Shown in pieces: positions 26,479-47,782 of a stretch of DNA of 64,000 nt. Source of the DNA: Pseudanabaena mucicola str. Chao 1806. Lineage in GTDB: Bacteria; Cyanobacteriota; Cyanobacteriia; Pseudanabaenales; Pseudanabaenaceae. Position numbers and translations under genes: made by a program. The stretch is taken from NCBI RefSeq assembly GCF_030323025.1, contig NZ_CP097329.1, positions 3,396,001 through 3,460,000 of the forward strand, written 5' to 3'. The notes beneath the pieces are model-generated. The model was given only the letters and a program-made list of their open reading frames with translations, was not told the DNA's origin and did no database searches. Every line of letters starts with the position of its first letter. Position 1 is the first letter of the stretch.

Positions 26479-27552
26479 GGACTTACGCAAGAACTATAGG
26501 AATAGAAGGATTTTTAAGTTGGGATTTTAAATAATCAGATAAAAGTCCAGATTTAAGTTATTAAATAGTGTTACCCAATTGAAAAGCTAAGCGTTTAAGC
26601 TGATTCCAAACGAGCATGGCACAGGCGATATGATTACGTTGAATTCTAGACTTGCGGCACTGGCAAGACTGAATACCCGTCAATTGTTTGAGTTCACGAT
26701 GAAATTCCTCAATATTCCACCTGATAGAGCAAATAGCATGTACTTCAGGGGTGTAGTCTTGAGTTAAGTCGTTAGTCACGACATATTCTGTCCTGCTAGG
26801 AGAAACAGTGACCCAGAATAGTTTCACCTTTTTGTCTTTGGGGAATTTATTGATTTTGATCAATTTTCCTTGCAATAATTCTTTCTCAGACCAAGCTAGC
26901 TGGTCAATCTGCATATATTTTTTTACTCCACCACTCTGATCGACTAAACGATTCGACTTGAGTGGACAGTAATAGAGCTTGTCGAGGTTATCAATTTCTG
27001 CCATTAATCTTTGCGTGGCATACCAACTATCCATCAACATGGTTTGAAAGGGTAGTTGTTTGCTATAGACTAATCCTTGCAACATATCAGATACATGGTC
27101 TAGTTTGCTTTTCCCATCGCCTTTGGGGTCATAAATCCGATAGTCTACTACCCAAAATTCATGCCGTTTGAAATTGACATAGATACTGGTGACTATCCCG
27201 ATTCCTTGGACGACTCCATGCTCGTTACCACTGTATTGTCTTTGTGCCATCTCAATCTGCTTAGCTAACACTGTGTCATCAAAAAGCATGTACATGTACT
27301 TGGCTTCATCCGTAACGAAGCTCGGTTCTACGTTTTGCCAGAGTATCCTTGGGGTCAGTTTTTGTCCTCTCATATATCGGTTGATTTGGTCATGACTGTA
27401 TCCCTCTATGTGTTCCACTAAGTTCGTGATCGTATAGTTTATCTGGCTACTCAGCAGATACTGGCAATAGTTTAGGATGCTAAATTTCTTTGCCATTTGG
27501 CTTTGCCTAACTCTTCTTCCTTTTTACCTCTTTTCCGACACTGCGTAAGTCC
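26479..27552 (-). mobile_element. IS701/IS4-like insertion sequence
   Basis: A 1074-base element with inverted ends GGACTTACGCA (26479 and complement at 27552). It holds one transposase gene. Left flank is a broken Uma2 gene, right flank a broken integrase gene, and no target duplication is visible, so sequence was probably lost next to it after insertion. Confidence 0.8.
26561..27496 (-). CDS. DDE transposase, IS701/IS4-like
   Basis: A 311-residue transposase with Asp in MLFDDTVLAK, Asp in MLMDSWYATQRLM and Glu in WNIEEFHRELKQ, the DDE triad with the YREK-like spacing of the IS4 superfamily. An intact frame, so possibly still active. The family assignment between IS701 and IS4 is by resemblance only. 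Confidence 0.8.
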   Translation of the reverse strand: MAKKFSILNYCQYLLSSQINYTITNLVEHIEGYSHDQINRYMRGQKLTPRILWQNVEPSFVTDEAKYMYMLFDDTVLAKQIEMAQRQYSGNEHGVVQGIGIVTSIYVNFKRHEFWVVDYRIYDPKGDGKSKLDHVSDMLQGLVYSKQLPFQTMLMDSWYATQRLMAEIDNLDKLYYCPLKSNRLVDQSGGVKKYMQIDQLAWSEKELLQGKLIKINKFPKDKKVKLFWVTVSPSRTEYVVTNDLTQDYTPEVHAICSIRWNIEEFHRELKQLTGIQSCQCRKSRIQRNHIACAMLVWNQLKRLAFQLGNTI

Positions 27553-27623
27553 TAAGGCTGTAAGCTTAGCCAAGATTGAAAAACGATTGGGATGTAATAC
27601 CTTGAGGCATAGCTTTGCTACAC

Positions 27624-27734
27624 ATTACAGCGCTTTGCGCTTACTTAAACCCCAGAAATATTTTTGAAAGTGGCGCGAAGCAAAACTTTCAAAAATATTT
27701 CTGTACTACTCAAAGCCTCAATAGGCTGTAATTA
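27624..27734. repeat. MITE family F, copy 1
   Basis: About 110 bases with ends ATTACAGC / GCTGTAAT and an internal perfect hairpin AGAAATATTTTTGAAAGT with its complement. It is inserted inside the integrase remnant. A second copy lies at 63392-63503 and a short derivative at 15215. Confidence 0.75.
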
Positions 27735-27802
27735 CAAAATTTCGTACAGTGCAGGAGTTATTAGGGCATAAGGATGTGAAAACAACCATGATTTATACAT
27801 AT

Positions 27803-27894
27803 TAGGACTTACGCAAACCGAACGAATTTATTAGGCTTGAGGTAGATGTGGTGCGGGCGAAGCCCGCACCACATCTACCCAATGTGTAAGTCCT
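27803..27894. repeat. MITE family G (ends like the adjacent IS)
   Basis: An insert bounded by AGGACTTACGC and GTAAGTCCT with the central hairpin GATGTGGTGCGGGCGAAGCC. It is flanked by ACATAT on both sides; removing the insert and one copy restores the integrase reading IYTYVLN. The ends match the IS at 26479-27552. Confidence 0.75.
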
Positions 27895-27950
27895 ACATAT
27901 GTACTTAATCAGAATAGTAAGGAAGTAATTAGTCCACTCGATCGCATGAA

Positions 27951-45799: not shown

Positions 45800-45904
45800 T
45801 AGATATTTCGACTCTCAGAAAGCAAGGTGTTAATGTTCTGGAGTCTTTCAAACAAGTGTTTCTTGGAAACCATTTCTTCCCAAATCTCCAGCCTGAGTAG
45901 TTAC
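45800..45904 (+). mobile_element. IS66 end fragment (solo terminal remnant)
   Basis: 105 bases nearly identical to the complement of 37745-37850, i.e. the transposase C-terminal codons and the terminal repeat AGCCTGAGTAGTTAC. No other part of the element is present. It sits between the CNB gene and the attC-like site. Confidence 0.85.
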
Positions 45905-45928
45905 AAGTAATCGCCGATAACTTCTCGG

Positions 45929-46015
45929 GTCTAAACAACGAAGCGAATCATTTTGCTTGCGTAATCTCGACTAGAAACAGACAGCCTTAATGGGCGTATC
46001 GTTTTGACGTTAGGC
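45929..46015 (-). other. attC-like recombination site (degenerate), downstream of the SRPBCC gene
   Basis: On the minus strand it begins with GCCTAAC (46015-46009), which contains the stop codon of the SRPBCC gene, and ends with a GTTTAGAC core-like box (45936-45929), 87 bases in all. Inner arms AACGATACG and AACGAAGCG are partly complementary. It fits the layout of an integron attC but with weak inner symmetry. Confidence 0.45.
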
Positions 46016-46423
46016 TGATTCTATTTTCTTTTTAAGCCCTTCAAGTGTCACGGGGAATGATTCATATATCTGCTTGCCTATGATTTTTGAAAATAGAAAG
46101 GCGGTCAGACCATAGAACTCTACACCGTGTGTAACCTTAGTGGTATCCCCCTCTTGAATTAATTCATGCGTAAACTTCATGATACAAAGGGGAAGTTTGC
46201 TTTCGACAGTAAATGAACGATTAGTATTTATCTCAGAAATCTTGATTGATGCGGAAAAACCGTTCCGAGGCTTAAGTCGCCCAGTTGCTCCTTGCCTGAA
46301 TATGCCATCTAAAGAGGAAGATAAAACTTCTGGATCCCAGGATTTCCAGTCGGCGACATTAGTATATTCGGCAAAAATTTTCTCTGGTGCCGCATTAATT
46401 TGGATTGAACGATGTAGTGACAT
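46010..46423 (-). CDS. SRPBCC (START-like) family protein, cassette-borne
   Basis: 137 residues of the polyketide cyclase/START-like helix-grip fold: SIQINAAPEKIFAEYTNVAD, WDPEVLSSSL and the long C-terminal helix FPVTLEGLKKKIESA. Such proteins bind hydrophobic ligands; ligand unknown. The ATG is 29 bases after a GTTAGGC site and the TAA stop is within the following GCCTAAC, exactly the geometry of integron gene cassettes. It has no own promoter in view. Confidence 0.85.
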   Translation of the reverse strand: MSLHRSIQINAAPEKIFAEYTNVADWKSWDPEVLSSSLDGIFRQGATGRLKPRNGFSASIKISEINTNRSFTVESKLPLCIMKFTHELIQEGDTTKVTHGVEFYGLTAFLFSKIIGKQIYESFPVTLEGLKKKIESA

Positions 46424-46451
46424 AAAAGTTGGTAAGGAATTATGTGTTTCT

Positions 46452-46535
46452 GCCTAACGGCTTAATTGAGCGGATGAGAACTTTCACTCTGGACTGAAAT
46501 ATTAGCACTTAGTCCGCTCCAATGATTTGTTGTGC
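46452..46535 (-). other. attC-like recombination site upstream of the SRPBCC gene
   Basis: 84 bases: on the minus strand it runs from GCACAAC to GTTAGGC. Inner arms TTGGAGCGGA and TCCGCTCAA pair with one unpaired extra base, the asymmetry typical of integron attC hairpins. The GTTAGGC end faces the gene start. It agrees with the consensus GTTRRRY at the cassette side; the other box deviates at one position. Confidence 0.6.
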
Positions 46536-46631
46536 ACCGATCGCTTATCAATTATTTATCTTTGCGATCGCCAACAATCTATCGGAACTCATCAACGAAG
46601 CTGACAATATTTGCTTGCTTAAACTTGGCTG

Positions 46632-47757
46632 ATAAGTAGGTAGACCAAAGAAAAGTTAAGATAAAAAAGTTCAGTAACTGCCCAAAATATGCCAGCCGCC
46701 CTCAAAGTAAAACTGAGTCTAGAAGAAGACAAAAGGCTGCTGGAAATCAGCCAAAGAGAAGCAACAGGAAAACGAGTCAAGCAAAGAGCCGAAGCGATAC
46801 GGCTAAGCAGTCATGGGTGGAAAGTCGCCCAAATAGCAGCATATTTCGAGTGGCATGAACAAACAGTCCGAGAAATCATCCAAAGATGGAAACGGGATGG
46901 CGAACAAGGGTTGTATGACCTGCCCAAGACAGGAAGACCAAAACAATGGCAAGAGTCAGACCTGAAATATCTAGAAACCTGTCTGGAAGAAGATGGTCAG
47001 GTATACAACAGTCAGCAATTATCCGCCAAGCTACGAGAAGAAAGACAAGTAAACCTAAGTAGTGACCGAATTAGGAAACTACTAAAAAAAAGGGTTGGGT
47101 ATGGAAACGGGCGCGAATTTCCCACCAAGACAAGCAGGATCAAGAAACTAAAGCAATGAAACAAGCCGATTTAGACTTCTTAAAATTAGCGGCGGCAAGC
47201 AGAGGAGATTTGTTTGAAATATTTAGATGAGACGGGATTTAGTTGTTGGTCACCTGTGCAGTATGGTTGGATTCGACAATGGCAGAGTAAACGCCTTGAA
47301 CAAACAGCATTGCGGGGTAAGTGAGTCAGTTTAATTGGTGTGTTGGAGCCTGAAGTGAGTTTTGATGCTGCTTATCGTGTCGGTAGTATCACCATCAAGG
47401 AATATATTGAAATTATGGATCGACAGGCTGATTTAGCTGCGGATTTATTCCTACTTAACCGTGTGATTACCGTCATTGGGCAAGACAATAGCTCTACCCA
47501 TACCTCTAAGGCGGTACAACTCAAAATTCCTGAGTGGGAGCGTAAAGGCTTATTTTTATTTCAGTTACCCCCCTACTGCTCTGAGATGAATCCCATTGAA
47601 TTGGAGTGGTTACATTTAAAGCGTGACCATCTTTCTGGTCAAATGTTTGACTCTGAGGATTTTTTAATGTGGGGTATCGAAGATGTTCTTCTTTCCCGTT
47701 ACGATTCTCTTGGTTTTGACACTTCCTATTTTGAGTTTTCTTATGCCTAGCTACTTA
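46632..47757 (+). mobile_element. IS630-family element, decayed
   Basis: 1126 bases with inverted ends TAAGTAGGTAGACCAAAGAA and TAAGTAGCTAGGCATAAGAA (complement of 47757 leftward) and TA at both edges, the IS630/Tc1 target. The transposase gene is broken. The ends match MITE family B. Confidence 0.8.
46689..47750 (+). pseudogene. IS630-family transposase, multiple frameshifts
   Basis: Frame 1 (46689-47159) reads the HTH domain (RAEAIRLSSHGWKVAQIAAY, RWKRDGEQGLYDLPKTGRPK). Then pieces YLDETGFSCWSPVQYGWIRQ (first Asp) at about 47215-47320 and a final frame from 47340 with VIGQDNSSTHTSKAV (second Asp) and SEMNPIELEWLHLKRDHLSG (Glu). The DDE triad is spread over at least three frames. The gene cannot make an active enzyme. 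Confidence 0.85.
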
Positions 47758-47782
47758 CCTTAATTTTTTCCTGTACTTAGCT

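Follow-up and report, generated by a model that had tools for sequence, protein, structure and literature searches.

The SRPBCC gene cassette analysed here likely belongs to the integron system of Pseudanabaena, either as a docking site for cassettes that has been damaged or as an outlying piece. The locus lies in the window, the whole stretch of 64,000 nucleotides that was analysed (positions 3,396,001-3,460,000 of a single-contig genome of 4.53 Mb). On the minus strand, its order would be a partial copy of a conserved element, E0, and the attC of a preceding cassette, then the SRPBCC cassette, and then E0 again (Table 1). In the mechanism that we propose, an integron integrase, probably encoded elsewhere in the genome, would insert cassettes at G^TT; the right side of this point would be the conserved E0, and the left side would in relatives often be an attI-like left element, LE. 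In the window, the left side would have been cut by an insertion, presumably of IS630 type, and the right side by the end of a second repeat.

Table 1. Coordinates, in the window, of the cassette locus and of the integrase remnant
Feature	Position	Strand	Basis
intI 3' end remnant, interrupted twice	27554..27942	+	TIGR02249; tblastn with intact IntI; sequence
Last 102 bp of a multicopy repeat (~1.6 kb), truncating E0	45803..45904	+	copies elsewhere
Truncated start of E0 (model positions 4-107), right edge of the cassette	45907..46009	-	model R1
SRPBCC (Polyketide_cyc2) cassette gene, 137 aa	46010..46423	-	ORF; Pfam PF10604, E 3.6e-9
Complete attC, 84 nt, end of the preceding cassette	46452..46535	-	covariance model; structure scan; array-site family
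E0 piece belonging to the preceding cassette, broken at a TA	46536..46634	-	R1 (model positions 35-135); sequence
Element taken to be IS630-like, frame broken, within E0 at a TA	46635..47779	+	HTH_23/HTH_32; DDE_3; sequence of both ends

The SRPBCC gene is a cassette preceded by a true attC

The 84-nt site upstream of the SRPBCC gene is a true attC, as the original prediction had it. It has the R''/R' boxes and paired inner arms, TTGGAGCGGA/TCCGCTCAA, with an unpaired base, one G, on one side, and its GTTAGGC lies at 46458-46452 on the minus strand. An attC covariance model (R3) matched the site at 40.5 bits with an E-value of 1.1e-7, the sole match in the window at E up to 1. R3 was trained on 19 attC sites beside IntI, from records not named Pseudanabaena. 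Because these sites were chosen by a pairing-based scan, the covariation counts of the model are inflated; the window test is unaffected by this selection, since the window site was left out of training. A structure-only scan, defined by the outer boxes and inner arms with one unpaired base, also gave the site as its single match in the window, and across 148 sequences, scanned on both strands for a total of 3.23 Mb, it returned 103 matches, compared with 1 in shuffled sequence. The window attC falls into one sequence family with 24 sites that a pattern search matched in the array of the window's genome. The prediction was to be given up if the covariance model found nothing and relatives lacked attC sites; this check was run, and the claim stands. 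Two other searches contributed little. GTTAGGC is not enriched in the genome and its count is uninformative (292 occurrences, against 469 of the reversed control word), and Rfam models at gathering scores gave no match within the window.

As had also been proposed, the SRPBCC gene is the cassette of an integron. Its ATG lies 28 bases past GTTAGGC, and its TAA stop (46012-46010) is inside a GCCTAAC (46015-46009), bearing out the described spacing and stop. A full cassette has a single gene flanked by two crossover points, with an attC of its own after it. Here the gene and the left crossover are present; R3 found no attC after the gene, either in the window or in the fetched contig of another genome, G026, where a complete E0 stands there. 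G026 has the same attC-gene-E0 order, and its protein is 97% identical to that of the window. Among 59 genomes, strong matches to the protein were confined to these two, with five weaker matches at 22-33% identity.

The downstream edge is the start of a conserved element

The GCCTAAC downstream of the gene had been taken for a second attC. That assignment fails: neither R3 nor the structure scan matched it, and the site is the truncated start of E0, not an attC. E0 is about 135 bp long, and the downstream site matches its first ~100 bp (R1 match at G000:C1:3441907-3442009, G000 being the window's genome); a complete copy occupies the same place in G026. The E0 model, R1, found the element in 26 of 26 genomes of the genus and in 31 of 38 genomes of the order, in four of eight genera.

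Several identities of E0 were considered. Neither an attC nor a structured RNA is supported: in 20 copies, whose mean column identity is 69%, RNAalifold gave -0.16 kcal/mol and 3 pairs, none with two-sided changes, and thus no conserved fold with covariation. Its opposite strand has a recurring reading frame, which a 21-nt indel preserves; it may be a coding remnant, although stop positions vary and conservation extends beyond the stops. In the large array of the window's genome (the home array), E0 and the attC after it make up gene-less cassettes of 213-217 bp. That role does not cover all of E0, as copies also lie outside the array, with varied attC sites before them.

Judging from the sequence at its edges, E0 starts at the predicted integrase crossover, G^TT. 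There are 114 distinct E0 copies in all (those missing the E0 start were dropped), 29 of them from the home array; the edge count covers the 65 copies in loci searched with R3 and leaves out home-array loci L156 and L182. An attC ends inside E0 in 28 of these 65, by 4 bp in 2 and by 5 bp in 26; at the other 37 the edge has no attC-model match. An attC directly follows E0 in 11 of the 65. The remaining attC ends within 300 bp lie at 216-244 bp (11 cases, with attC following E0) and, once, at 18 bp. The attC types that precede E0 are diverse, and in several genomes E0 stands directly after the main attI; L070 and L072 have another sequence there. A junction test by strict pairing proved too unspecific, with scores of at least 10 at 24 of 79 E0 copies versus 115 of 874 GTTA positions in the same loci, true attC sites included, and was replaced by R3. 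We also observed a short repeat whose ends read GCGATCGC (...TAGAAATCACGACTCACAGTAATAGCGATCGCC...) and which often lies 3' of E0, for example in L180, L205, L210 and L225.

Both sides of the window locus are damaged. The repeat that truncates the downstream E0 has nine further copies among the matches listed; its extent of ~1.6 kb is taken from the copies examined, and it is probably an IS. The frame-broken element on the other side is one that we take to be IS630-like with a TA target. The right flank seen beside SRPBCC-E0 in G026 has been lost from the window's genome.

The window's genome is rich in integrons

The window's genome is rich in integrons. It has two intact IntI genes (3,533,942-3,534,883 and 4,478,372-4,479,313; TIGR02249) and degenerate IntI pieces at 2.217-2.219 Mb (TIGR02249). 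Applied to 140 kb of this genome, R3 gave 65 attC matches at E up to 0.01: the array at 3.488-3.534 Mb accounts for 55 of them, and two groups of 5 lie at 2.22 Mb and by the second IntI. A complete integron, of intact IntI, attI and attC array, occupies 3.49-3.53 Mb, with a 323-aa integrase ORF (TIGR02249, 464 bits) and the 55 attC-model matches. IntI of this genome has a 100% identical counterpart in a Pseudanabaena sp. MAG.

No integrase adjoins the SRPBCC cassette, as had been noted from the letters. To this extent the description of it as a lone cassette is right; with two intact IntI genes and a 55-match array in the same genome, the description is incomplete. The closest of the 65 R3 matches lies some 45 kb away from the window attC. 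An integrase-like remnant had also been pointed out near 27.5 kb, and it is a real remnant of intI: TIGR02249 gives weak matches at 27,554-27,802, and tblastn with intact IntI adds 27,895-27,942. A 311-aa ORF resembling a transposase (26561-27496) lies directly before it.

The integrons of this genome differ in their make-up. The home array (G000:C1:3487952-3533691; L019-L021) has one near-identical attC family in many copies, with tandem gene-less cassettes of 213-217 bp; it also has attC sites that differ in type and in length (58-129 nt), which would suit cassettes of several origins. The second intact IntI (G000:C1:4470001-4479313, L025) has its own small attC set, and a different sequence precedes its first cassette. 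Outside this genome, L076 (JAAUUT010000049.1), labelled Candidatus Gracilibacteria, carries an IntI that shares 72% identity with its cyanobacterial counterpart; the contig is possibly mis-binned.

With a large array so near, the window piece could be a chunk of it, moved at least 45 kb by IS-mediated rearrangement, with E0 as the non-coding part of gene-less cassettes. The window attC does belong to the array's own attC family, E0 with attC does form the 213-217 bp cassettes within the array, and the piece is bounded by two repeat elements. We nevertheless consider this origin unlikely: attC-SRPBCC-E0 in G026 has a chromosomal right flank common to other species, and an attC directly follows E0 in just 11 of the 65 copies outside the array.

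A left element faces E0 in related genomes

LE is an element of about 67 bp at the left edge of one orthologous locus, locus A, with the consensus ...AATTAAACCGCAATTGCGTTAnAACTATAAGTTA. Its model gave 64 matches in 21 of the 26 genus genomes, and none in the window's genome or in G058, a genome of the same species. As a candidate for the sequence before the cassettes at the two intact IntI genes of the window's genome, LE was rejected, being absent at both.

Pairing of LE with E0 was scored against 103 E0 copies among the matches listed, with the copies of G000 and G058 not entered. On the same strand and within 5 kb, LE was followed by E0 in 17 pairs (16 LE) and E0 by LE in 3, and opposite strands gave 0; 45 of the 64 LE matches had no E0 within 5 kb among the matches listed. 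In two genomes, G020 and G027, LE and E0 abut directly, leaving two empty places. Beside the one in G027 is an intact 328-aa IntI ORF, divergently oriented, that shares 54% identity with the main IntI; in G020 there was no IntI match within the fetched stretch. LE thus adjoins intI and ends at G^TT in one clear case, G027, with a fragmentary case in G006; at the remaining LE sites examined, the fetched loci gave no IntI match. Since the intact IntI adjoins the abutting LE-E0, LE is the predicted attI of a second integrase type, the G027 locus is an integron without cassettes, and its E0 is the sequence after the predicted attI crossover.

Orthologous loci share edges and differ in content

Locus A has flanking chromosome common to 12 genomes. 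In seven of these the flanking genes are 28-164 bp apart, with neither an E0 nor an LE match. Four others, G008, G010, G024 and G027, from four species, have a common left segment ending ...CATAAG^TT (LE) and a common E0 and right flank, and between LE and E0 they hold 836, 2181, 2031 and 3395 bp, respectively; the inner stretches of G010 and G027 include extra E0 copies or pieces. In G026 the contig starts at about the left edge. When the five stretches were compared, G024 and G026 had their first 137 bp in common (99%) and then diverged at GTTA, and G024 and G027 had 31 bp in common; these were all the sharing that we found.

Locus B is that of the SRPBCC cassette in G026, where a complete E0 is followed by a right flank common to G008, G058, G004 and G030. 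In G008 the same right flank comes after another cassette and E0, and in G058, of the window's species, another gene is joined to a partial E0; G004 and G030 have no E0 match at the common right flank. Two E0 loci of the window's genome are more than 99% identical in the same-species genome, and turnover is therefore absent there.

Differences of this kind might also arise if the content were swapped by homologous recombination among the dispersed copies of E0 or of LE, rather than by an integrase. E0 and LE are indeed dispersed repeats, G005 and G028 seem to have one pair of flanks in shuffled order, and E0 persists in genomes without an IntI over the cut-off. The copies of E0, at 69% mean column identity, are diverged, the edges of the 28 copies that have an attC fall at G^TT, give or take one base, and the attC types abutting E0 are diverse; we hold this route to be quite improbable. 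Insertion of cassettes into chance chromosomal attG sites, as for IntI1, we judge to be very unlikely. Lone cassettes far from an integrase are its expected outcome, according to PMC12901181 and PMC12444791. Chance sites would lack common flanks, and so the recurrence of the same right-flank element in 28 of 65 copies, and of LE at the left, disfavors it.

Discussion

The common picture of an integron has a single integrase with a single attI and a single array. The best reading of the dispersed LE/E0 places is that they are attI-like docking sites, mostly without an integrase. Counting for docking are the attC-model match in the window, the attC ends at 28 of 65 E0 edges, the differences in content at loci A and B, the bias toward LE followed by E0, and the IntI beside LE-E0 in G027. 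There is also evidence against docking. Of 13 genus genomes tested, 6 have no IntI over the cut-off, yet all have E0; one of those without, G008, has 19 E0 copies among the matches listed and 10 LE matches. LE is absent from G000 and G058, and E0 moves in gene-less cassettes. Lastly, no attC match adjoins 37 of the 65 E0 edges, and for 45 of the 64 LE matches no E0 within 5 kb is among the matches listed.

On the docking reading, IntI would have carried out the cassette exchanges, acting in trans, and the window site would formerly have had a left element. More broadly, we give about even chances to a model in which Pseudanabaena and its relatives have a decentralized integron, with one or two integrases and dispersed LE+G^TT+E0 sites without an integrase, at which cassettes are swapped in trans. 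If so, captured genes would lie at many points of the chromosome and not in one array. In relatives, matching docking spots would lie scattered round the chromosomes, with different genes in different species. With repeated attI-like sites that lack an integrase, a captured cassette could come to lie in many positions and contexts, and some lone cassettes would be docked genes, not debris. Locus A, in its twelve genomes, supplies natural examples with and without cassettes. A search of the open-licence literature found no paper on orphan, solitary, additional or dispersed attI, which, given that scope, is weak evidence of novelty; among the matches listed in the same literature, no paper was titled for Pseudanabaena integrons.

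Integrons of cyanobacteria have been published, as has an attC model specific to this group (PMC2426708 and PMC8352920). Like the sedentary chromosomal integron of cyanobacteria, the system here has IntI, attI and attC cassettes; unlike it, many cassette places lie away from IntI, beside the conserved E0 and, in relatives, LE. CALINs are likewise made of attC cassettes without an adjoining integrase and, according to PMC12444791, need at least two attC sites and can be mobilized in trans. The original prediction offered a CALIN or an isolated cassette; the missing integrase fits, but the window has one attC, below that two-attC threshold, and so is not a CALIN. The places in relatives differ further in their recurrent LE/E0 edges, two of them empty. 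Insertion at attG resembles the present case in placing cassettes in the chromosome away from an integron. However, attG sites diverge strongly from classical att sites (PMC12901181), whereas LE-E0 is a repeat of conserved sequence that in G027 is a predicted attI.
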